This document shows, in pieces, positions 12,495-24,967 of a stretch of 64,000 nucleotides of DNA (the stretch's first letter is position 1; the number at the start of each line of letters is the position of its first letter). The notes below the pieces were generated by a model. That model was not told the origin of the DNA. It made no database searches and saw nothing but the letters and a program-made list of their open reading frames with translations. Source of the stretch: Haloarcula salinisoli (lineage in GTDB: Archaea; Halobacteriota; Halobacteria; Halobacteriales; Haloarculaceae); assembly GCF_019599405.1 (NCBI RefSeq), contig NZ_RKLQ01000004.1:62001-126000 (forward strand), given 5' to 3'. A program made the translations under genes and the position numbers.

Positions 12495-12571
12495 TATCGT
12501 TATACCGATAACTCTTAGTGATTTTCACGGGGCAACACTAATACTGTTAGCTGTGATAACGATAACTAGTG
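12495..12571 (+). promoter_or_regulatory. inverted/direct repeats in the promoter of the AbiE-like pair
   Basis: ATCGTTAT at 12496-12503, a nearby CGATAACT and a further TGATAACGATAACTAGTGAT at 12554-12573 form related half sites, some inverted. The second copy reaches the start codon. This is what is expected for negative autoregulation by the HTH protein downstream. Confidence 0.45.
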
Positions 12572-13246
12572 ATGATGGAGTATAACGACGAGACGGCGGC
12601 TAAAATCATGTTGGCGATTCGTCCGGGGGATTCTATCCGACGGATCGCCCAGAAGATTGACGCCTCATACTCCTGGGTCTATGACTGGATTGAACGATTA
12701 GACGACGCGGACTTCATTCGTCGGGACGGCGGTGTCTATGTCGAGAACTACGCTATTAGAGATCGCTATTTCGATCTCATGGCGGCAATCTCACAGTCGG
12801 TTTCTCCCTCAATAGACGATGGATACGTTATCCCCCACTTTGCCGAAATGTCGTTCGCCTACACGAAAATTGACAGTGTCTATGTCTGGACTCATGGGGG
12901 ATATCAGATAGCTCGGGGTCACGACGATTATCCGATCTTTCTCAAAGTTCGTGACCAGGATGTCGAGCGCTGGACCGCCTTCTTTGATGAGTTCGGCATC
13001 CTCAACTCTGTTGAAGAGCGATTAGATGAAAGTGTGCTTGATTCGCCGGTCTCGTATGTCCTCTTCCCCTCCGCTGACGAGCTCGAACCTGAGTGGGTTG
13101 AGGGCAACCCTGTTATTTCACTCGACGAGACGATTTCTCATATGATGGAGAACCGTGTGAACTACGAACCGGCTTTGGAGATGATCGCTACAGAATACGA
13201 TCGGGATCTCGACGCTAGTCACGAGGATCCACGGTTGAAATCATGA
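12572..13246 (+). CDS. AbiEi-like wHTH antitoxin/regulator
   Basis: 224 residues; three consecutive in-frame starts (GTG 12569, ATG 12572, ATG 12575). The N-terminal wHTH (AKIMLAIRPGDSIRRIAQKIDASYSWVYDWIERLDDADFIRRDGGVYV) is clear. The rest is an alpha/beta domain with VWTHGGYQIARGHDDYPIFLKV. It overlaps the nucleotidyltransferase gene by four bases (ATGA). The order HTH then nucleotidyltransferase is that of type IV AbiE toxin-antitoxin systems, in which the first protein represses the operon. The AbiEi identity is inferred from gene order and the HTH. Confidence 0.7.
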   Translation: MMEYNDETAAKIMLAIRPGDSIRRIAQKIDASYSWVYDWIERLDDADFIRRDGGVYVENYAIRDRYFDLMAAISQSVSPSIDDGYVIPHFAEMSFAYTKIDSVYVWTHGGYQIARGHDDYPIFLKVRDQDVERWTAFFDEFGILNSVEERLDESVLDSPVSYVLFPSADELEPEWVEGNPVISLDETISHMMENRVNYEPALEMIATEYDRDLDASHEDPRLKS

Positions 13247-13938
13247 GTCTGGGTGAACGTGAAGCGGAGCTGTTAGACACACTTGAGGCTGTAATTGGGG
13301 CTGAACTCCCATATGTTCTAGTCGGAGGATGGGCAATTGCAGCCTTTAATCAGCGTTTCACGACCGATGTCGACGTTGTCATACCGGCTCAAGCACTAGA
13401 GGCGTATACCGATCTTCTGACTGAACGTAACTACGAGGTCACCGCCGATGTGAAGCGAAACGACCTGTATGAGGGGCGGACTGTCCGGTTCACAAAAGAT
13501 GTTGGGAATCCAGTCCAGTTCGATGCGATGGTTGATGCTTTGGGCTGTCGACAAACAGAGGCTGAGTGGTCTTATCGACACCTGGCAGAGCATTCTATAG
13601 AGAAAGAACTGCGCACTGCTCGTCCGATTACAGCTCGGATTCCGGAACAAGAGTTACTGTTTTCTCTGAAACTTCACAGTGGTCGAAAAGCAGACACACG
13701 CGATCTGGTTGTTCTCGCTGCCGATGCTGATTTTGAACGAATCGGTCGACATCTTCACCGTGGAGAGCCAGAAAAACTCGCAGCACGCATCGAAATCGTT
13801 CTTGAGCGCCTCACCTCTCCAGATTTCGAAGATGCATTTAAAGGGGTCTTCGAGCAAGCATCAGTACCAACACAGGATATTGATGCAGTAGCTGCCTTCC
13901 TTCGCGATCAGCTTCGACGTCTCGATACTGATCAGTGA
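13243..13938 (+). CDS. AbiEii-like nucleotidyltransferase toxin
   Basis: 231 residues. The DNA polymerase beta-type signature is complete: GGW at residues 28-30, then D42xD44 in TTDVDVV, followed by a third acidic position in QFDAMVD. A helical C-terminus is present, as in AbiEii/DUF1814-like nucleotidyltransferases. In characterised AbiE systems the enzyme transfers nucleotides to tRNA or proteins and causes reversible bacteriostasis. Its start lies within the stop of the HTH gene, so translation is coupled. It could also be a DUF6036-type enzyme of similar fold. Confidence 0.75.
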   Translation: MSLGEREAELLDTLEAVIGAELPYVLVGGWAIAAFNQRFTTDVDVVIPAQALEAYTDLLTERNYEVTADVKRNDLYEGRTVRFTKDVGNPVQFDAMVDALGCRQTEAEWSYRHLAEHSIEKELRTARPITARIPEQELLFSLKLHSGRKADTRDLVVLAADADFERIGRHLHRGEPEKLAARIEIVLERLTSPDFEDAFKGVFEQASVPTQDIDAVAAFLRDQLRRLDTDQ

Positions 13939-14027: not shown

Positions 14028-15074
14028 ATGTCCACAGAATCTTCACCCGCAACTGGTCGTCGACATCAGAAACAAGAACGCTCAAACCTCTCTACGGAAG
14101 AAACGCCAACGTCCCGGCTAGCATCGGAGCGCTGCTGTCCTGAGTGTGAGAGCGACGACTTGGTCGTTCAACAAAACGAAACTTACTGCGAGAGATGTGG
14201 CCTCGTTGTCCACCGTGACGACCTCGATCGTCGCCGGAGGTGGAACTACACCGAGAGTGGACGTGAGTCCGAACGGACTGGCTCTCCAACCACCCATCGG
14301 CTTCACGACCGAGGCCTCTCGACCGATATCGGCTACTACCGAGACGGCGCCGGAAACCCGCTCGATTCGAATACTCAACGGCTGTTTTCGCGCCTCCGTC
14401 GCTGGGATGCTCAGTCGAAAGTTCCCTCAAAACGGGATAAATCGCTGAGGGATGGTCTTAGCGAGATTGCTCGGTTAATTAGCGTTCTAGACCTCTCTGA
14501 CTCGATATTCGACGAAGCCGTGGATATCTATCGGAAAGCGTGGGATGCGAACTTGCTCAAGGGTCGCTCCATTGAGGCGATTGCCAGTGGTAGTGTGTTC
14601 GCTGCCTGCCGACTGGAACAGCTACCCCGGCATAGAAGTGAGGTCGCCGACGTCGCCCGTGTCGACAGTGATGCGATCGATAACGCCTATGGGCAGCTGA
14701 ATCGGGAATTGGAATTGGCAATCCCACCATCTCTTCCGCAAGATTTCCTCCCACGTATTGCGTCGGTAATCGGGGCGGCCAATCACGTTGAACAACGTGC
14801 CCGAGAGCTGCTTCTTTGTCCTGCGGTCGGCAGACTTTCGAATGGACGACCGCCGTCTGGGGTTGCAGCCGCCGCATTATATCACGTTCAGCAGGCTGAG
14901 ACCGGTGAAAAACGTGTATCTCAAAAGGCCATTGCTGAAGCTGGCTTCACTTCCGCACTCACCATTCGAACGATTTGGCGGAAGCTTCAGGAGCTCGAAA
15001 AGGAGGGGAAATTGTGCGACAACGCCGATACGATGCCTACGTTACACACCGGCGGTAATCCAGCCAAGCGGTAG
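14028..15074 (+). CDS. tfb: transcription initiation factor TFB
   Basis: 348 residues. An N-terminal zinc ribbon has C37, C40, C54 and C57 (CPEC...CERC), followed by the B-reader-like RRRRWNYTESGRESERTGSPTT. Two cyclin-like repeats follow (LSEIARLISVLDLSDSIFDEAVDIYRKAW... and LPRIASVIGAANHVEQRARELLL...). It recruits RNA polymerase to TATA/BRE promoters. Haloarchaea carry several TFB genes that act as alternative general factors, and this one could favour genes of its own replicon. It sits between two hairpin leader elements and upstream of PCNA. Confidence 0.95.
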   Translation: MSTESSPATGRRHQKQERSNLSTEETPTSRLASERCCPECESDDLVVQQNETYCERCGLVVHRDDLDRRRRWNYTESGRESERTGSPTTHRLHDRGLSTDIGYYRDGAGNPLDSNTQRLFSRLRRWDAQSKVPSKRDKSLRDGLSEIARLISVLDLSDSIFDEAVDIYRKAWDANLLKGRSIEAIASGSVFAACRLEQLPRHRSEVADVARVDSDAIDNAYGQLNRELELAIPPSLPQDFLPRIASVIGAANHVEQRARELLLCPAVGRLSNGRPPSGVAAAALYHVQQAETGEKRVSQKAIAEAGFTSALTIRTIWRKLQELEKEGKLCDNADTMPTLHTGGNPAKR

Positions 15075-15103
15075 CGTAGGACGATTGAAAAAGAACATCT
15101 CCA

Positions 15104-15140
15104 ATGCTGATTTGTCACCCCCGGTGCGGTGAGGGGAGAT
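15104..15140 (+). promoter_or_regulatory. hairpin leader element, copy 3
   Basis: TGCTGATTTGTCA, CCCCC, loop, GAGGGGAG. Here the ATG of pcn is 87 bp downstream and a separate TATA-like box (15156-15164) lies between, so the element may not be in every pcn transcript. Confidence 0.5.
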
Positions 15141-15155
15141 AGGCCTGCAAGTGTG

Positions 15156-15164
15156 CTATAAAAG
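15156..15164 (+). promoter_or_regulatory. TATA box for pcn
   Basis: CTATAAAAG is a near-consensus archaeal TATA box. It would start transcription near 15183-15190, about 40 bp before the ATG at 15227. Confidence 0.5.
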
Positions 15165-15226
15165 AGCCACTGCATTCCTTGGACTTTCCCGCCACTGCGA
15201 ATCTATCGCAGAGCAACTAATCGATT

Positions 15227-16243
15227 ATGAGCACGAACACTGAATCCACAGCAGACGCACAACCTGAAGACGATATCGACAATCTGGAAATCGAAGCCGA
15301 CCCGGAAGGTACGGTTGAGGAAGACGCTACTGACGCAACAACAAACGAAGAGGTCGATGGTGAGGCTAATATCGACAGTGAGCCAGCAGCCGACCTGACC
15401 GACGAGCAAGACACCAGTGAGGAGTCGATAGCAGAGGCTTCCGACGAAGCTGATGCCGAAGACGAGACTGAGGAGGAAAGCGTACTCACGGGCCCTCCAG
15501 AGCGCTTCCAGGCTGCGATCTTGGGTGGCGAACTCAAGAATTTCGTCTCAACCCTGCGAGTCATCGTCGACGAGGCGAAACTGACTGTTGGACCGGACGG
15601 CATTACTAGCAGAGCGGTTGACCCAGCGAACGTCGCGATGTACGATCTAGAGCTGTCGGCTGCTGCATTCGAATCCTACGAGTCCAGTGACGGCTTGCTG
15701 GGAGTCAATCTGGAGCGATTCGAGTCCGTTCTCAAACTCGCAAAGAAAGATGATCTCGTCCAGGTTTCGTTCGACACTTCCACGTACAAGCTTCTCATCG
15801 TCATCGACGGTGTCGAGTTCACGATGGCGTGTATCGACCCCGATAGTATACGGCAGGAGCCCGAAATTCCGGAGATGGAACTCCCAATCAGCCTTACCGT
15901 CGGGGGGAGCCAGATATCGCGAGCGGTGAAGGCTGCTGACATGGTCTCCGATCACATCGGATTCCGCTGCGTAGAAGCTGACGAGACAGTGTTCATCGAG
16001 GCTGAAGGCGATACCGATGACGTCTCGCTCAGACTCACTGCTGACGAATACGAGAGTCTAGACGCCGTTGACGGACGAGCACTATTCAGTCTTGACTATA
16101 TCAAGAACATCTCCAAAAAGCTCCCCAAGACTGACGATGTCACTCTCACATTCGGAGACCAATTCCCGATGCTGGTAGACTACGAAATTGCAGACGGCGA
16201 GTGTAGTGTCGCAGCGATGGTGGCCCCACGTATCGAGACCTGA
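15227..16243 (+). CDS. pcn: DNA sliding clamp PCNA with long acidic N-terminal extension
   Basis: 338 residues against about 245-250 for usual archaeal PCNA. Residues 93-338 are a complete clamp: FQAAILGGELKNFVSTLRVIVDEAKLTV, SRAVDPANVAMYDLELSAAAFESYE, FTMACIDPDSIRQEPEIP (interdomain region), LPKTDDVTLTFGDQFPM. Residues 1-92 are an almost purely Asp/Glu/Ser/Thr/Ala tail without hydrophobic core. PCNA tethers DNA polymerase and nucleases to DNA. The extension could be a flexible regulatory tail. A plasmid-borne second clamp next to TFB suggests a replicon-specific replication module. Confidence 0.95.
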   Translation: MSTNTESTADAQPEDDIDNLEIEADPEGTVEEDATDATTNEEVDGEANIDSEPAADLTDEQDTSEESIAEASDEADAEDETEEESVLTGPPERFQAAILGGELKNFVSTLRVIVDEAKLTVGPDGITSRAVDPANVAMYDLELSAAAFESYESSDGLLGVNLERFESVLKLAKKDDLVQVSFDTSTYKLLIVIDGVEFTMACIDPDSIRQEPEIPEMELPISLTVGGSQISRAVKAADMVSDHIGFRCVEADETVFIEAEGDTDDVSLRLTADEYESLDAVDGRALFSLDYIKNISKKLPKTDDVTLTFGDQFPMLVDYEIADGECSVAAMVAPRIET

Positions 16244-16909: not shown

Positions 16910-17671
16910 ATGGACTTAAGCGCTGAGAAAATTTCTGAATACAGAGAGAAGGTCACAGAGAGAGCATCAAAAGCTGCCGATCAGGTATCTCATATTCCCC
17001 GCGGTCGGACGATGCCAGATTTAGAGCAGATGACCATATCCGAGACAAAAGAGTTTGGTATGGGTGTTGTTTTTGTAGATATCGTACAATCAGGAAAATA
17101 CCTGACCGATAATGGCCCCCGCAAAACAATGCTCATGTTGAATGTATTTATCCCGCAGGTTATGGATTTGGTCAATGACTTCGATGGCCATTTTGAGAAA
17201 AATACCGGCGACGGTGTCTTGGCATACTTTGGTGTTGAGAAAACAGAAAGGTCAGCTGTTGAAGATCTCTTAGAGTACTTCGCCTGCCTCAGATACGTTG
17301 TAGACGAAATTGTCAACCCTGAACTTCAAGAATACAATGTCCCACCCATTTCTATCAGCGTCGGTGCTGCATACGCACAGGATGTCTATCTTTCCCGGAT
17401 TGGGGTCTGGGGACAGAACCGTTTAACAGCAGTTTCGACGGCCGCCAACGTCGCCTTCGAACTTCAGGAGCGTGCAGGGGCAGACGAATACCTAGTTGAC
17501 GAAGGTATACGAACTTTTGCTGATAGCGAGGACGGATGGGGACAGCATCTAGAAAAAGAGGGGGTGCTGCGTGGCTTCCGCTGGGGTTCATCAGAGGAAG
17601 GACGCCATACCTCACGCTACTACTCGTTTATCGGTGGCTTTGAACAATCACGGAGTGATGAAAATGACTGA
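16910..17671 (+). CDS. Pycsar-type class III nucleotidyl cyclase (PycC-like)
   Basis: 253 residues. The class III cyclase core is visible: MGVVFVDIVQSGKYL with metal ligand D57, FEKNTGDGVLAYF with the second ligand D101, and ISISVGAAYAQDVYL. The block NRLTAVSTAANVAFELQERAGADEYLVDEGI follows, where N180 matches the usual transition-state Asn but E184 stands where many cyclases have Arg. The next gene, overlapping by eight bases, encodes a three-helix membrane protein of the PycTM type. That pairing is the Pycsar defence layout, in which the cyclase makes cCMP or cUMP on infection. The substrate cannot be read from sequence. The gene is more AT-rich than its neighbours, suggesting transfer. Confidence 0.75.
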   Translation: MDLSAEKISEYREKVTERASKAADQVSHIPRGRTMPDLEQMTISETKEFGMGVVFVDIVQSGKYLTDNGPRKTMLMLNVFIPQVMDLVNDFDGHFEKNTGDGVLAYFGVEKTERSAVEDLLEYFACLRYVVDEIVNPELQEYNVPPISISVGAAYAQDVYLSRIGVWGQNRLTAVSTAANVAFELQERAGADEYLVDEGIRTFADSEDGWGQHLEKEGVLRGFRWGSSEEGRHTSRYYSFIGGFEQSRSDEND

Positions 17672-18158
17672 CAAGGAGACTATTGGGTCCCAAGAGTTCG
17701 CTTCACGTATTCAGGACCATCTGAATCACTATATCAAGGCCGCTGACCGGAAGGCGTCAATTTTACTAACTGGTCATCTTGCCTTTTTAGGACTGTATGC
17801 TAATCTGGTAAAACCAGTATTTAGTGAACCGACGTGGCTTGAATTATTACTGATTGCGGCTACCGCCGTTTTAACGATCATCGCTGGAGGATTATCTTTG
17901 AGTGTCGTATATCCTCGCACCCCTGAAACACCGCAAGGATATATGCTCTGGACTTCAATCCTCGACCATGATGAAGAAGAGTATCGAGAGGAGCTGAAGG
18001 ACTTAGATCCAGACTCTATTCTCACTGAGATGGTGGATGAAAATTATGCACTAGCGGAGGTGGCTGACCAGAAGTACCGGCACTTTCGGTGGAGTGTACA
18101 TATAACAATCGCGATGGTTGCCTCGGCGCTGGCTTCGTATCTATTCGTCGTCGTATAA
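17664..18158 (+). CDS. Pycsar effector-like membrane protein (PycTM type)
   Basis: 164 residues from the ATG at 17664, chosen because GGAG lies eight bases before it. The N-terminus HLNHYIKAADRKASILLTGHLAFLGLYANLV carries the (A)D-x-KAS-I-L-L pattern of Pycsar effector/DUF5706 proteins. Membrane segments lie at about 32-48, 58-82 and 146-163. A charged cytoplasmic region (DHDEEEYREELKDLDPDSILTEMVDENYALAEVADQKYRHFRW) is between the last two. Known PycTM effectors perturb the membrane when bound by cyclic pyrimidine nucleotides. It is coupled to the cyclase and ends one base before the convergent methylase gene. Confidence 0.75.
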   Translation: MTDKETIGSQEFASRIQDHLNHYIKAADRKASILLTGHLAFLGLYANLVKPVFSEPTWLELLLIAATAVLTIIAGGLSLSVVYPRTPETPQGYMLWTSILDHDEEEYREELKDLDPDSILTEMVDENYALAEVADQKYRHFRWSVHITIAMVASALASYLFVVV

Positions 18159-18159
18159 A

Positions 18160-19272
18160 TCAATCAGAGCCGACGATGAGCAGCTCTTCATCTGAATCAT
18201 TTTCACTCAGAGCGTACTGGTGATTCAGACGGTACGTAGTGACATTACGTTTATATTCAGCCAACGTGTCCTCAACTGTCTCGGGAAGCGGTGCAGCCTC
18301 AGTATTATATGAGAGTGCAATATGTCTGTCGGAGAATCTATTAAATATTGTATGGAACGCGTCAAGAATGAGCTCGGGGTCATTCCACGGTTCTCGACTG
18401 TGCTTCAGCCGCTTTGTTTTTAAAGAGCGATTGATTTTGTCTGCCCAGTTATCGTAGTCAATGTATCCATCCAAAAAATGGTAATAAAGTTTGTAATTCG
18501 ACACTGGCTGTGATCGATCACGAACATAGTATGGCGGGTCAAAATAAACTAGATCAGTCTCAGGCGGTGATTTCCACGAAATGATATCACGATTATATGC
18601 TCTATGGTCATACGGATTTGCGAAGACAGCAGAGTTGTACTCGACAATGAACTTCCTAACCAATTTTTCAAATGGTTTCTCCCATGTCGTCTTGTTCCCA
18701 AAGGAACGCTCAACATCTCGGGTTCGCATGTTCAAGTTCGCCCGGTGGAACAAATTATATGGTCGTTTGACCAGACAAGCTTGAGAGAGTGCGGCAAAGA
18801 CAATTGCCTTTTTATAGGGTTCGTCGATGATGCGGTCGATATTACTTCGGAATTTATCTAACCACTCATTCTCTTCGTCAGTAAAATAGAGCCCTTCGAA
18901 CTCATCACGGACCGTTGTCGGATAGGCTTCTGCTGGCTGATCAAACCGAAATAATTCATCTACCGTTTGATGGTCAACTCTAGTAGCATCGTTCTCAATA
19001 ATTGCCGTGCCAACTTGATGGTTGAACCGTAGAAAGTCGTTGTAATCCGCTCGAAGACCCTCCGTTTTGGCTTTATAAGAAAAAACACCGGTACCACCAA
19101 ATCCGTCAAGGACTGAATCGAACGAATAATCAGACAGACAGTCCCAAATCCAGTCGATGATTTTGTTTTTAGACCCTTGGTATCGAGTGGATGGGAATTT
19201 CGCTATATCCCGATTTTTTCCGGCGATTTTGATGTCAGCAGACGACGTGTCAGCGCGAACCAACGGGGCCAT
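18160..19272 (-). CDS. D12-class N6-adenine DNA methyltransferase
   Basis: 370 residues. TRYQGSKNKI (residues 29-38) and DGFGGTGVFSYKAK (56-69) match motifs X and I of Dam/D12 methylases. The catalytic motif IV is FDPPYY (residues 244-249). The enzyme transfers methyl from SAM to the adenine N6 of a specific duplex sequence. It lies 47 bp downstream of a MORC-like GHKL ATPase gene on the same strand, probably one operon, with no restriction endonuclease in sight. That arrangement suggests self-marking in a defence system, though an orphan methylase is possible. The codon and base composition is AT-richer than the rest of the window. Confidence 0.85.
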   Translation of the reverse strand: MAPLVRADTSSADIKIAGKNRDIAKFPSTRYQGSKNKIIDWIWDCLSDYSFDSVLDGFGGTGVFSYKAKTEGLRADYNDFLRFNHQVGTAIIENDATRVDHQTVDELFRFDQPAEAYPTTVRDEFEGLYFTDEENEWLDKFRSNIDRIIDEPYKKAIVFAALSQACLVKRPYNLFHRANLNMRTRDVERSFGNKTTWEKPFEKLVRKFIVEYNSAVFANPYDHRAYNRDIISWKSPPETDLVYFDPPYYVRDRSQPVSNYKLYYHFLDGYIDYDNWADKINRSLKTKRLKHSREPWNDPELILDAFHTIFNRFSDRHIALSYNTEAAPLPETVEDTLAEYKRNVTTYRLNHQYALSENDSDEELLIVGSD

Positions 19273-19319
19273 ATCCCTTCATAATATTGCTTCACAAAAA
19301 GTCTTGATATCGCCTTAAT

Positions 19320-21434
19320 TCAGTTGTCCAGTAACTCCGAGAGAATCACCCTTTTGAGTTCGGGCTCAACATCCTCTTCGATGTCACTGTCCGAATCTAC
19401 ACCCAGATAAGCGCACAACTGCTGCCAATCATCTAAATCAAAGTCCAAAACGACTGTTTTCTTATCAGGTTTTGACTGTCTGTGTCCTTTCAGATCATCC
19501 GGCCCTTGCGAGTTCTGAGATGACTCAGGTATCTCTTGCGAGGTGTTGTTGTCGTTTTCAGACTCGGAGCTATCTGATGAGTCTGAAGAGTCGGTATCAG
19601 ACGATATTGTCTCACTCGCGTCTTCGGTTGTGGTGTGCCCTGTGGTTTGTGTCTCCCGGGGCGTTTCTCCGTCTGTCTCGTCTTCTGTAACTTCTGAGTC
19701 GGTCTGTGACTCTTGATGCGACCCTAGCGTTGCTTGGCTATCTGAGTCGCTATTCTCTGACTCTGTGGTATCTCCCCTCGCCGGAGTCTTTTCGTTAGCT
19801 GGGTCGTCCTCTTCAGATTCTACAGACTCTACTCCATCATTACTCGCAACCGAGGTGAGTGAGTCGTAGTCTGCGTAGTGTCGCAAATACGCTTTATATA
19901 CCGGAACCCACCACTCATCAGAAAAGTTCTGTCGTCTCCCTCTGTTTGCGTCCTCTTGAGCGGTAGCCCGAACTTCTTCGATAGTGTCTGCCAGCTCTTT
20001 ATCACTGGTATCGGCTGGACAGTCAGGTACAGGAACCAGTTTATTGAGGGCGACCTCCTCTACTTCGGCTACGTTGGTATCGTTGACTATCTCCCTATAT
20101 GTGGGTCGGAATCGCTCGTCAACCAGATGGGGAGCGGTAATACCAGCCTCAACATGAGTGTCGATCGTCTGTTCAAGCCAGTCTTTGTCATCATAATCCC
20201 GATTTGGCTTATCATTAACCCGCTGACGGCCACGGTAGTCGAATTCGTAAAGGTGGCCATTGTTTGCTTGCCATTCGCCAGTACTGGAGTACGGTTGAAG
20301 AAATGCCGCAGGAAATGTGCTGTATCTGGCTGCCCGCCAGTACGGCTCAACGATGCTGTCGAACCACTCCTCATAAACTTCCTGCATCAACGAATCGTAC
20401 TCGTCAATGTCGTTCTTCTGAGTGTCCCACGGAAGACGTTCGGCATCACCAGTAGTTTTGAAGAACAGACGTACTTTGAGGCGACCACGTGATGGGCCAA
20501 CCTCTCCAACATTCTCAGTATGCTCGGTGTTGTAACCACCTTTAGCGTCGGTGTTTCCAGTAATTACTTTCCGGTTCTGACAAAAAATATCTGTTCCGGC
20601 TTCGTCCTCATTTGCCGTAGCCATCAGGCCAACTTGAATAGTGATTGAAACATCGTGATCCAAGTTGTGCCTCCGGAGAGTGATGTTCTCGTATGACCGT
20701 GGATGAAATCCATCAAATGGCGTAAATGACCAATCAATTGGCTCGGGCACCCGTACTTCTTCTCCGTTGAGCGAAATAGAGAGGTGACCAGTGAAATCGG
20801 GCGAAGATTGTAGAAACACTTCGTATGTCTGGCTGAGTTGGTGACGCAATCCATCTATGAACTGTTCTGTATCAATTCCACTGGCATCTACGTCCATTTC
20901 TTCGCCTGCTTCATCAAGATCTAAGGCCAAATCGGTAATCGAGATAGTCGTCGTACCAGCCTCCATATCGGTGTACGGCCGCTTTTCAACCTCCCAATCC
21001 TCTGGTTTCTCTATCCATTCTTCACTGATTGAAAAGCCATACCCGAACTCTTGTTCTTTATAACGGCTCCGTAGCTCGGCGTTACGCCCCAGTTTGACGA
21101 TTGCTTTCTTCGCGCCAACACCATATGCCCCGATTGGCGTATTTACCGTTTCCTTGGTTGACTCACCCAATGCGAACAACTTTCCAATCTGGTCTTCCTC
21201 GAGCCCACCACTGTTGTCGGTAATTTCGAAGAGATCTTCGCTGGGGTCATACGTGATGTCGATATCAAGATCCGTCTGACGACCATGGACGCGCTCCCAA
21301 TTGTCCAAGGCGTTATCGATTAGCTCTTTTATTGCACCGACTGGGCTCACGTCTGATTGGATTGAGCGATATGTTTCCTTGCTAGGACTGAGATCCATTG
21401 TCTCTGAGTCAGGAAGTTTCCGTTCCTCTGGCAT
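19320..21434 (-). CDS. GHKL (MORC/MutL/Hsp90-like) ATPase
   Basis: 704 residues. The Bergerat ATP site is complete: N-box KELIDNALDN (E37, N41), G1 box DNSGG (73-77), and G2 box GAYGVGAKKA (102-111). An S5-like region follows (RLKVRLFFKTTGDAERLPWDTQKNDIDE), as in MORC and MutL proteins. Residues about 540-650 are a Ser/Asp/Glu low-complexity linker, and the end (VVLDFDLDDWQQLCAYLGVDSDSDIEEDV...LKRVILSELLDN) is a small separate domain. Prokaryotic MORC-like ATPases occur in restriction-modification-like conflict systems. It is the first gene of a probable two-gene operon with the D12 methylase. Confidence 0.8.
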   Translation of the reverse strand: MPEERKLPDSETMDLSPSKETYRSIQSDVSPVGAIKELIDNALDNWERVHGRQTDLDIDITYDPSEDLFEITDNSGGLEEDQIGKLFALGESTKETVNTPIGAYGVGAKKAIVKLGRNAELRSRYKEQEFGYGFSISEEWIEKPEDWEVEKRPYTDMEAGTTTISITDLALDLDEAGEEMDVDASGIDTEQFIDGLRHQLSQTYEVFLQSSPDFTGHLSISLNGEEVRVPEPIDWSFTPFDGFHPRSYENITLRRHNLDHDVSITIQVGLMATANEDEAGTDIFCQNRKVITGNTDAKGGYNTEHTENVGEVGPSRGRLKVRLFFKTTGDAERLPWDTQKNDIDEYDSLMQEVYEEWFDSIVEPYWRAARYSTFPAAFLQPYSSTGEWQANNGHLYEFDYRGRQRVNDKPNRDYDDKDWLEQTIDTHVEAGITAPHLVDERFRPTYREIVNDTNVAEVEEVALNKLVPVPDCPADTSDKELADTIEEVRATAQEDANRGRRQNFSDEWWVPVYKAYLRHYADYDSLTSVASNDGVESVESEEDDPANEKTPARGDTTESENSDSDSQATLGSHQESQTDSEVTEDETDGETPRETQTTGHTTTEDASETISSDTDSSDSSDSSESENDNNTSQEIPESSQNSQGPDDLKGHRQSKPDKKTVVLDFDLDDWQQLCAYLGVDSDSDIEEDVEPELKRVILSELLDN

Positions 21435-21649
21435 CTTTATGGTAAGAAATCATATTGTACTTGCAAAAACCTATTGTTGAAATCTATCTTTGAAACAGAT
21501 CCAGGCAGTTGAATCAACTACTGTTCCTAAGAGGTTATATCATATCTGAGCAGGATTAGCCTATGACTGAATAAGAACCCACGGTCTATGTTGTTGAACA
21601 CAGGTTAGCGGGGGCTGGCAACATAGGAACTCATCTGTGTCGAACGTCT

Positions 21650-21850
21650 CGGTATCTTCGAGGTCCTCTGCGGCCCGAGGCGTTCGTCGAGTGGCTTGAC
21701 GCCAGTGAAGGTGGACGAGCACCCCAGTTCTATCACTTCGGTACGCTCTATGACGAACTCAGCTACAAAGAGCAGCAGGCCATCGCACACGGTGTTCCTC
21801 GATTTCCGGCGACATCGATAGCCCCTTGGAGGAGGGCGGCAAATCGGCTC
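21650..21850 (+). pseudogene. decayed fragment of a haloarchaeal gene
   Basis: The frame starting at 21650 gives RYLRGPLRPEAFVEWLDASEG, then GGRAPQFYHFGTLYDELSYK and EQQAIAHGVPRFPATS before decaying, with no start and no good end. The composition is that of a real haloarchaeal protein, so it looks like a remnant. Parental family not recognised. The surrounding gap 21435-22009 contains no intact gene. Confidence 0.4.
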
Positions 21851-22009
21851 ACCGGCAGTTCAACGGCCAGTGAGCCATTATAACGTATAAACCCCACACA
21901 GACGAGGCGACAGATATCAGCTGGCGGCTGTTCAACACCCATGAGGCTACTTACTCTTCAGCGGTAATTGGGAACAAACGATATCGACGGAATATACTTC
22001 GCGAAGAAA

Positions 22010-23230
22010 TCACGCATCCAGTGAGAGGACGATATCCGCATCCCACAGGAGGGTGTATTGGCTGTAATGTCCTTTTCCTTCACCAGTCCCCCGTCGGCTG
22101 CCCGCAATTTCTAGGAAACAGAGTTCATTGAGCAATTGCCGTGTTCGTTCGGCTGATAGCGGATCGGCACCACTCTGCTCACACACGTCGAGATACGTCT
22201 CGCGTATCTTCATCGTCCGGAACCACTCCCGCTCAGGCTGGTTTTTCGTGAGATTTGCCAGCGCGATCAAGACATGCTTGCTGTGAGGAGGCAATCCCGA
22301 TATGAGTTCGAGTAGACGATCCACTTCCGCCGAAGCCCGTGCATCGGAGAGGTGAGATTCCTTCACCCGGTCGGCGTTTTCCTTATTGGCTTGGTCACCG
22401 GCATACCGAAGGAGTCGCATGGCCTTTCGAGCATCTCCGTGTTCTTTCGCGCTCAGAGCGGCCGCACGAGGAATCACCCCGTCGTCGAGAACTCCATTGG
22501 CAAAGGCATCAGTCCGATTCTGGAGAATTTCCCGGATTTGACTGGCGTCGTAGGGCTCAAAGATGAATTCGTTGTGCCCGAACGAGCTCTTTGTCCGCTC
22601 GCTCATCTTCTCCCGGTAGTTAATTTTGTTCGACACTGCGATCACGCCAATCGGAACATCCACACTCCCGTCTTCTCCTGCCCGGGAAAGCGCCATCAAC
22701 AGGTCGTCGTTATTGAGTTTGTCAACTTCATCGAGGATGATGATCGCAGCATCATAGAACTCGTTCAGGACTGACCAAACTCGCTCGAAATACTCATTCT
22801 CGGAAATCCCTCGAGCCGGGAACGTCATACTGCTCTCTGGTGGGTTGATTGCCCGACCGTACTTGCTCAGTGCATCGGAGTTGCCCTTTGCCTGCTGGCA
22901 ATTGACGTATCCCGTTGCAAGCCTCACACCGCGATTCTCAGCTTCTTCTTTAGCGATTTTTGAGACGTGCTTTGCGACGAGGGACTTTCCACAGCCCGTT
23001 TTCCCGTAGATGATGATCGAATTCGGCGGCTGACCAACGACTATTGGCCCGATCTCTTCTGCCACCTTCTCAATTTGTTCATCGCGACCGACGATGCGCT
23101 TCTCACTGGGGACATAGTCGATTTGGAGTATCTCTCGTTGTTCAAAGATTCCCCCACCACCCTCGTCGACATTCTCAAAGACACTGTGGATGGTGTCTGA
23201 CCCGTCTTCGCTATCCATTGTCAGAGTCAA
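22010..23230 (-). CDS. orc1/cdc6: Orc1/Cdc6 replication initiator
   Basis: 406 residues; an internal ATG at 23218 is an alternative start. Walker A is YGKTGCGKSLVAK (residues 75-87), Walker B is AAIIILDEVDKL, sensor 1 is VIAVSNK, and a sensor 2-like region is HGDARKAMRLLRYAG. The C-terminal part (LPPHSKHVLIALANLTKN... through RTRQLLNELCFLEIAGSRRGTGEGKGHY) is the winged-helix domain that reads origin repeats. Orc1/Cdc6 binds ORB-type repeats beside its own gene and loads MCM. Matching repeats lie immediately upstream (23321-23400) and beyond an inserted element (25001-25098). Confidence 0.95.
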   Translation of the reverse strand: MTLTMDSEDGSDTIHSVFENVDEGGGGIFEQREILQIDYVPSEKRIVGRDEQIEKVAEEIGPIVVGQPPNSIIIYGKTGCGKSLVAKHVSKIAKEEAENRGVRLATGYVNCQQAKGNSDALSKYGRAINPPESSMTFPARGISENEYFERVWSVLNEFYDAAIIILDEVDKLNNDDLLMALSRAGEDGSVDVPIGVIAVSNKINYREKMSERTKSSFGHNEFIFEPYDASQIREILQNRTDAFANGVLDDGVIPRAAALSAKEHGDARKAMRLLRYAGDQANKENADRVKESHLSDARASAEVDRLLELISGLPPHSKHVLIALANLTKNQPEREWFRTMKIRETYLDVCEQSGADPLSAERTRQLLNELCFLEIAGSRRGTGEGKGHYSQYTLLWDADIVLSLDA

Positions 23231-23469: not shown

Positions 23470-24967
23470 ACAGGTGGAGCAGGCCGAGTGCCTCGGGGTC
23501 TTCAGAAGACTTCGTCTTCCGTGATGACGAGACGCGATGCGTCTCGAACCACTTGACCCAGAGGGTGAAGGCCGTAAGCTCAGGGTGTTCCACTTTCACT
23601 GTGGATGGCTGGCATTCAAGATAATCGCACTACTACACTGGTACTGGAGCGAATGACCGACGCACAGGCTCTCGTCAAGACGCTGGACTTCCAACTCGAC
23701 ATCCAGAGTGACAACGAGGGCCTGCTGTACGACGCCACGGTCGAAGCCCGCCGAGTGTACAACGAAACCATCCGACTCGCCAAAGAAGGCGTGGACTGGG
23801 ACGCCATTCCCGACAGGGTAGCCGACGACGCTGACCTCGTGAAGAACACTACTCAGCGTGTCGTTGCGAAGGCACTCGGTGCGATGGAGAACTACTACGA
23901 ATACGACGACTTCGGCCAACCGAGCCACACCAAGGGCGGAACGTACCCGCTTCGTGCGAACTACGAGGAGGGGTACAACCTGTCGCTCACCGACGACGGC
24001 GACGTGGCGTTCCGAATCAGCGCGAAGCCGTACAAGCACGTCAAAGGCGTTCTCGAAGGTGACGACGCGCACCTCGATATTCTCAAGACTGCCCTCACGA
24101 GTGATGAGTGGAAGGTCGGGACGGCTGAAGCCCTATTCCACAACGACAACCCCGAGTTGCACGTCAACGTCACCAACACCAAGCAATCCGTTCGAGACAA
24201 GCAGGACTCACGGACGGTTGTCGGTGTGGACGTGAACGAGGACAACGTGGCCCTCACCGCTCTGTCCGAAGATGGCGTGGAGGACACGCTGGTTATCGAC
24301 TTTCCCGAAATCAAGTTCGAGCGTCACCGCTACTTCACGATGCGGAAGCGCGTCCAGAACGCGGGGAAGGACAGCATCCACGACACGTTGGAAGGGTGTG
24401 AGGAACGGTTCGTCCGCGACCGACTCCACAAAGTGAGCCGTCACATCGTGGAGTGGAGCCAGCAGTTCGAGAAGCCGTGCATCGTCTTTGAAGACCTCAA
24501 AGAGATGCGCGACAGTATCGACTACGGCACGCGGATGAATCGACGCTTGCACCACCTCCCGTTCCGCGCCCTCCAGTTATATACGTCGTACAAGGCGTCG
24601 TTCGAGCGCATCCCGACTGCGTGGATTAACCCCGAATACACGAGCCAGCGGTGTCCGATGTGTGGGCATACGGAACGGGCGAACCGCAACAAAAAGCGGT
24701 TCAAGTGCCGGTCGTGTTCGCATCAAGACCACAGCGACCGTGGTGCAAGCGTCAATATCGCTGTGAAAGGCATGAAGAAACTCGATTGGAATGTGCCTGC
24801 TCTCAATAGCCTTCCCGTTGTTCGGAAGGTGCGACGGCAGGCATCGGGGGCTGTGGACGCCCCGACCGTGACCCACCCAACCGTTCGAGGCTATCAGGCC
24901 GATGGTCGGATGGGAGTGTCCGACTAAACCACGGGAAGCCTCGGGGCTTGACCTCGAGGCGGTTCAC
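23470..24967 (+). mobile_element. tnpB-only (IS1341-type, IS200/IS605 family) element inserted in the origin repeats
   Basis: It holds one tnpB gene and no TnpA. Subterminal palindromes lie at the left (GAAGACTTCGTCTTC at 23506-23520, GAGACGCGATGCGTCTC at 23530-23546). The right end reads GGAAGCCTCGGGGCTTGACC (24933-24952) and finishes GGCGGTTCAC at 24967. The left boundary is approximate. Origin-type repeats lie on both sides. The bases after the right end (TACACTACTACTTACTAGAA) would be the natural guide of the element's right-end RNA. Confidence 0.7.
23653..24927 (+). CDS. tnpB: TnpB RNA-guided nuclease, copy 1
   Basis: 424 residues from the ATG at 23653 (MTDAQALVKTLDFQL); the open frame begins 16 codons earlier. 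RuvC residues are present: D in VVGVDVNEDN, E in IVFEDLKEMRD, and D in HSDRGASVNIA. A four-cysteine zinc finger is CPMC...CRSC. TnpB proteins are RNA-guided DNA endonucleases that use the element's right-end transcript. No TnpA transposase is nearby, so movement would need one in trans. It is clearly different from the other three copies in the window. Confidence 0.9.
   Translation: MTDAQALVKTLDFQLDIQSDNEGLLYDATVEARRVYNETIRLAKEGVDWDAIPDRVADDADLVKNTTQRVVAKALGAMENYYEYDDFGQPSHTKGGTYPLRANYEEGYNLSLTDDGDVAFRISAKPYKHVKGVLEGDDAHLDILKTALTSDEWKVGTAEALFHNDNPELHVNVTNTKQSVRDKQDSRTVVGVDVNEDNVALTALSEDGVEDTLVIDFPEIKFERHRYFTMRKRVQNAGKDSIHDTLEGCEERFVRDRLHKVSRHIVEWSQQFEKPCIVFEDLKEMRDSIDYGTRMNRRLHHLPFRALQLYTSYKASFERIPTAWINPEYTSQRCPMCGHTERANRNKKRFKCRSCSHQDHSDRGASVNIAVKGMKKLDWNVPALNSLPVVRKVRRQASGAVDAPTVTHPTVRGYQADGRMGVSD

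Follow-up and report, generated by a model that had tools for sequence, protein, structure and literature searches.

A MORC-like ATPase and a D12 DNA methylase in one four-gene unit with a Pycsar pair in haloarchaea: a candidate modification-gated defence cassette

Pycsar systems consist of a cyclase and a receptor, and activation of the cyclase PycC has been modelled as a response to phage infection and/or a change in pH (PMC11224242); the direct trigger of these cyclases is not settled. Prokaryotic MORC and paraMORC ATPases were described by Iyer, Abhiman and Aravind (2008; PMC2292703) in operons that resemble restriction-modification systems, a minority of which combine MORC with methylases or restriction enzymes without a helicase, and the text of that paper nowhere uses the word 'cyclase'. 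The DndFGH restriction module has been treated as stand-alone in an account that mentions neither MORC nor GHKL (PMC10853773). Across the open-licence literature searched, Pycsar and GHKL are named together in a single paper, on a DNA-damage kinase. From these three papers and this search, a union of MORC, methylase and Pycsar appears to be undescribed in that literature, and it should be noted that Pycsar was not yet known in 2008.

The locus described here lies in a window (the whole stretch of 64,000 nucleotides that was analysed) which is part of a 219-kb contig in a haloarchaeal genome of 4.0 Mb. Its features are as follows:

16910-17671, + strand: PycC, a class III nucleotide cyclase of Pycsar type (253 aa; PADLOC 3.7e-25)
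17664-18158, + strand: PycTM, the Pycsar membrane effector (164 aa; Pfam 8.3e-13, PADLOC 7.8e-28)
18160-19272, - strand: D12-class adenine-N6 DNA methyltransferase (370 aa; DPPY motif; Pfam)
19306-19311, no strand: GATATC site in the gap between the ATPase and methylase genes, beginning 39 nt ahead of the methylase start
19320-21434, - strand: MORC-like GHKL ATPase (704 aa; Pfam, MORC3 match, Foldseek)

The first-pass annotation had placed the ATPase and methylase genes on one strand, 47 bp apart, in AT-rich DNA and with no separate endonuclease, and each of these points holds: both genes are read from the - strand with a 47 bp gap, the GC content at the locus is 44-49% (53.5% for the window), no nuclease gene was found among the four genes or in their immediate flanks, and a search of the genome aimed at the EcoRV family found no EcoRV-type nuclease. 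The PycC and PycTM genes adjoin the methylase gene in convergent orientation, the PycTM stop codon lying 1 bp from that of the methylase. Read from the ATG at 17664, PycTM overlaps the end of PycC, and its reading frame is open from a GTG at 17571. A search of 21434-22010 for a hidden gene gave no ORF of at least 60 aa as far as 21600; at 21640-21830 on the + strand, between the genes for the ATPase and Orc1/Cdc6, there is what looks like the remnant of a coding sequence, with no intact ORF noted.

PycC retains both metal-binding aspartates (D57 and D101, invariant among relatives) and its matches in the structure database include the solved PycC cyclases 8jsf, 7r65 and 8jsz. Both Pfam and PADLOC identify the gene adjoining it as PycTM, giving the adjacent effector by which Pycsar systems are recognized. 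In its class III cyclase with both metal Asp residues, its PycTM effector and its overlapping genes the pair is therefore like described Pycsar systems (clades A-E), and it differs from them in its link, seen in four genomes, with genes for a MORC ATPase and a DNA methylase. Pycsar systems are further characterized by synthesis of cUMP or cCMP and by protection against viruses, and on its genes the present pair is a putative system of this kind.

The identities proposed for the other two proteins in the first pass were borne out. In Pfam the methylase, which keeps the DPPY motif, matches MethyltransfD12 at 2.8e-17 and the ATPase matches HATPase_c_3 at 2.8e-10. By sequence, MORC3 is the solved protein closest to the ATPase (1.1e-7), and a profile of the ATPase family ranks MORC3, MORC4 and MORC2 ahead of HtpG and MutL. 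Within its GHKL domain the N-box (ELIDNALDN; E37, N41), the G1 motif (DNSGG; D73, G76, G77) and the G2 motif (GAYGVGAKK) are all present, and in alignments E37, N41, D73, G76, G77, G102, G107 and K109 are invariant among relatives, i.e. the ATP-binding motifs are complete. The S5/transducer region carries GTDIFCQNRKV (280-290) and LPWDTQK, the latter containing the conserved basic residue (K340, invariant in the alignments). The sequence GTDIFCQNRKV is two positions off the S5 motif found only in MORCs (GhXhhpXXRhl), and at this point the consensus of the family profile gives a weak alignment with GIMMYHKNRLI of MORC3. An AlphaFold model made with 11 sequences is confident in its GHKL core, the mean pLDDT over the whole being 59, and in a Foldseek search with this model the best match was MORC3, with MORC2 also among the top matches and TRAP1/Hsp90 structures close behind. 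The link to restriction-like systems drawn earlier from Iyer et al. is supported. A GHKL + S5 ATPase lies beside a DNA methylase in both cases, whereas the partners in the published operons are nucleases and helicases and the MORC-specific S5 motif is matched only in part in the window.

It had also been suggested that the C-terminus of the ATPase might hold the effector activity. Beyond the S5 region the protein consists of a helical middle region to about residue 528, a disordered acidic linker (about 529-661) and a helical tail some 40 residues long; Pfam shows no nuclease domain in the protein, including the part after the GHKL/S5 region, and we therefore rejected a C-terminal effector. 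A tail of similar kind is seen in the alignment in ATPase relatives that have quite different partners. The same findings, together with the absence of an EcoRV-type nuclease from the genome, tell against reading the locus as a plain restriction system, in which unmarked DNA would be cut by the C-terminal part of the ATPase or by a nuclease from another locus and Pycsar would be irrelevant. Nuclease tails are indeed predicted in some paraMORCs (Iyer et al., 2008; PMC2292703), but for this protein we regard such a reading as very improbable.

The distribution of the genes was followed through 391 sampled haloarchaeal genomes, with a cut-off of E<=1e-30 for relatives of both the MORC protein and PycC; flanks were taken for ATPase relatives at this cut-off and for weaker ones, and genes were called around each. 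MORC relatives are present in 19 of the 391 genomes and PycC relatives in 12, and four genomes hold both (those of the window, G319, Halarchaeum nitratireducens and Natronomonas sp. LN261) where 0.58 would be expected (P=0.0016, adjacency not counted). All four have the two genes adjacent, which would be far less likely to come about by chance, even if defence genes cluster strongly. At the three loci other than that of the window the genes are all read from a single strand, -4 to 60 bp apart, and show two gene orders. G319 (L049) has MORC, D12 (58% identical to that of the window), PycC and PycTM, with gaps of 42, 23 and 2 bp; H. nitratireducens (L041, the same locus as L094) has D12, MORC, PycC and PycTM, with gaps of 60, 2 and -4 bp, and LN261 (L042, the same locus as L091) has this second order also. 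An insertion sequence breaks the MORC gene of G319 and the D12, PycC and PycTM genes there are open, so these three can persist without MORC, at least temporarily. The Pycsar genes of the window are on the opposite strand from the ATPase and methylase genes, which makes co-transcription with them impossible there. PycTM occurs once in every one of the four genomes, and that copy lies within the cassette.

In a tree of 27 MORC sequences the four Pycsar-linked proteins form one clade (support 97/98), outside which no MORC has Pycsar. A tree of 14 PycC sequences splits the four linked proteins from ten stand-alone ones (95/95), and the PycTM tree agrees with this split at lower support (78/83). 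When the four loci were compared, all gene similarities fell inside the four-gene core and no flanking gene was held in common, indicating a cassette rather than a shared region. The methylases of the window and L049 belong to a different D12 subfamily from those of L041 and L042 and BLAST finds no match between the two subfamilies, so that the link between MORC and Pycsar has outlived an exchange of methylase. On these comparisons the unit is a cassette which has passed from one background to another with its parts kept together, and the conservation of the window's genes from 16910 to 21434 as a unit is well supported. The first-pass annotation had proposed looking for the ATPase-methylase pair across haloarchaea and would have given up its reading had the two genes occurred together nowhere else; MORC and D12 genes were found together elsewhere. 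It had also put Pycsar next to the pair, and the adjacency stands; the standing of Pycsar as a separate neighbour does not, as the relatives place it in the same cassette.

The alternative that a MORC-methylase pair (a defective restriction system) and Pycsar merely lie side by side in a defence cluster has to be judged against these data. Defence genes do cluster, the Pycsar genes are convergent in the window and the sample contains eight other haloarchaeal PycC loci that have neither such an ATPase nor such a methylase close by, so that PycC does not generally require MORC. In Haloplanus sp. GX21, moreover, Pycsar lies 1.3 kb from an unrelated methylase + GHKL pair. Against this, Pycsar accompanies all four members of the MORC clade, in two gene orders plus a convergent form, with congruent trees and unrelated flanks, and we think coincidence improbable. 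At the Haloplanus locus (L123, on a plasmid) the pair near PycC-PycTM consists of a cytosine methylase and a GHKL protein of 677 aa whose C-terminus may be nuclease-like, and this is perhaps another association of Pycsar, GHKL and methylase.

All instances of the four-gene unit are haloarchaeal (n=4, two of them close to each other). Two haloarchaeal families searched whole gave no members beyond those known, and the strong matches in a scan of contigs were the known loci and Haloquadratum LUM.47, which lacks Pycsar. No MORC or window-type methylase match was found near PycC relatives of methanogen type, and neither MORC nor methylase lies alongside PycC at three loci on bacterial plasmids. 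Viral spread of the cassette was considered and rejected, since viral contigs gave only weak MORC matches and no methylase relative; the single PycC on viral contigs has no MORC or methylase match nearby. The idea that the gene beside the L039 ATPase encodes another cyclase was not supported.

The conserved unit, taken with the lack of a nuclease, suggests that the marking of DNA decides when the Pycsar alarm is raised, the Pycsar pair probably being the missing effector of the MORC-methylase pair. We consider the chances evenly balanced that the four genes at 16910-21434 are a single anti-virus cassette of this kind, a modification-gated Pycsar system. In such a system the D12 methylase would mark host DNA at its target and the MORC protein, by analogy with MORC, MutL and Hsp90, would be a dimerizing, ATP-driven DNA clamp that engages DNA without the mark, for example incoming viral or plasmid DNA. 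MORC on unmarked DNA would then switch on PycC, directly or by contact, PycC would make a cyclic pyrimidine nucleotide and PycTM would respond by damaging the membrane, so that the infected cell is sacrificed. The signalling module would thus occupy the slot of the nuclease in ordinary restriction-modification. What is observed is the identity of the genes, their intact catalytic motifs, the unit in four genomes, the congruent trees and the absence of a nuclease. What we infer is the joint action of the parts, the direction of gating, the clamp, the messenger and the sacrifice of the cell. If the scheme is right, unmarked DNA becomes a concrete trigger for PycC, and restriction-modification and cyclic-nucleotide signalling, branches of immunity that are treated separately, are joined.

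The main rival to modification gating is a two-tier arrangement in which MORC and the methylase would act by themselves, for example by clamping unmarked DNA or by compacting or silencing it, much as the MORCs of eukaryotes compact chromatin. Pycsar would then be a separate second line that kills the cell once the first has been disabled, a part played by PrrC beside a type I restriction system. The linkage of MORC and Pycsar is equally evidence for this arrangement, the convergent and separately transcribed genes of the window fit it, and many other MORC relatives are found without Pycsar. The tightly co-transcribed MORC and PycC genes of L041 and L042, spaced by 2 or -4 bp, suggest direct coupling instead, and we rate two tiers as unlikely.

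The methylase provides a further comparison. The type found in the window is rare, occurring in three of the 391 genomes, and the third (G383, L119; 53% identical to the window's) has its gene directly after that of an EcoRV-type nuclease (Pfam 1.5e-25 for the nuclease); no MORC match was found at this locus, and an EcoRV-family gene is absent from all four MORC-Pycsar genomes. More distant bacterial relatives adjoin AlwI-family or other type II nucleases. As a methylase of the same family has an EcoRV-like nuclease as its partner in G383 and MORC and Pycsar with no nuclease in the window, the same kind of enzyme serves both ordinary restriction-modification and the cassette. Measured against a type II system, the cassette has the methylase (D12) and no cognate nuclease was found, the EcoRV family having been searched genome-wide.

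EcoRV cuts GATATC, and the presence of this site just upstream of the methylase agrees with the pairing of a related methylase with an EcoRV-like nuclease. In L049 the GATATC in the corresponding gap starts 40 nt before the methylase start (39 nt in the window), within the shared stretch CGATATCAAGA[C/T]TTTTT; the best 18-base match between the two gaps is 15/18, a value reached in 1 of 3000 Markov shuffles. Such conservation suggests that the methylase could act at GATATC and may control its own promoter. Avoidance of GATATC as proof of specificity was rejected: the window shows none (48 sites found, 44 expected under the strictest model), and the 0 found against 3-4 expected in L119 are too few to use, many other palindromes behaving alike. 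As a separate observation, GATC is strongly depleted in the 19-kb L119 region (7 found, about 90-120 expected).

This site is also the mainstay of a different explanation, that the methylase, perhaps with MORC, regulates expression of the cassette by methylating sites within the promoters and that MORC is no sensor of foreign DNA. The near-identical placing of GATATC in the window and L049, with 15 of 18 bases alike despite 58% protein identity, and the EcoRV-type nuclease that sits with such a methylase elsewhere both favour it. No GATATC element was identified, however, for L041 and L042, where the methylase differs, and what is conserved may simply be a promoter element; we judge epigenetic control to be improbable, to much the same degree as coincidence or slightly more so.

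Returning to the modification-gated reading, relatives of the ATPase and methylase are also found with other effectors. A sister MORC clade with a D12/Dam-type methylase lies directly upstream of DptF-DptG-DptH in one operon in L045 (9274-20000), L047 (9030-19999) likewise has a MORC ATPase and D12 methylase followed by DptF-DptG-DptH in one operon, and in Natronorubrum aibiense a sister MORC-Dam pair adjoins dptF/dptG. The layout of L045 and L047 is like that of the present cassette in joining a sister MORC and a D12 methylase to an effector module, and differs in its effector, which there restricts DNA as a complex where the present one would signal through a second messenger. No dndC was found in three genomes tested that carry MORC-Dam-Dpt loci, among them those of L045 and L047, which makes it probable that they lack the usual phosphorothioate mark, and Dpt restriction gated by adenine methylation, without phosphorothioation, is possible at these two loci. 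On the reverse strand of L043 (the same as L092, Natronorubrum thiooxidans) a MORC-Dam pair precedes the genes for McrB, McrC and a helicase (SF2, dnd_restrict_1 family). With Pycsar, DptFGH and McrBC + helicase as partners, the MORC-methylase pair looks like a front end whose effectors can be exchanged. Tentatively, at somewhat under an even chance, we would go on to propose that the methylase's self-mark, read by the MORC ATPase, controls the cyclase and that MORC-methylase modules in general are sensors for such exchangeable effectors (Pycsar, DptFGH, McrBC with helicase). Were this so, prokaryotic MORCs would be sensors, with a bearing on the origin of the eukaryotic MORC silencing proteins.

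A shorter MORC-like ATPase (about 445 aa) followed by a 317-aa protein was seen in L055, L056, L058 and phage PfAC20 (L038:280-3711). The 317-aa protein of L055 matches Methyltransf_35, and a cytosine methylase gene lies beside the short-MORC pair in PfAC20 and apparently also in L056.

The surroundings of the cassette in the window (14028-16243 and 22010-23230) encode an extra TFIIB, a PCNA-like protein with an N-terminal extension of about 100 aa, and Orc1/Cdc6, a gene content of the type seen in plasmids or integrated elements. A TnpB/Cas12f-like gene (23605-24927) adjoins the Orc1/Cdc6 gene, and at 12569-13938 the gene for an HTH protein overlaps a nucleotidyltransferase-like gene in a manner resembling a toxin-antitoxin pair (Pfam matches weak).
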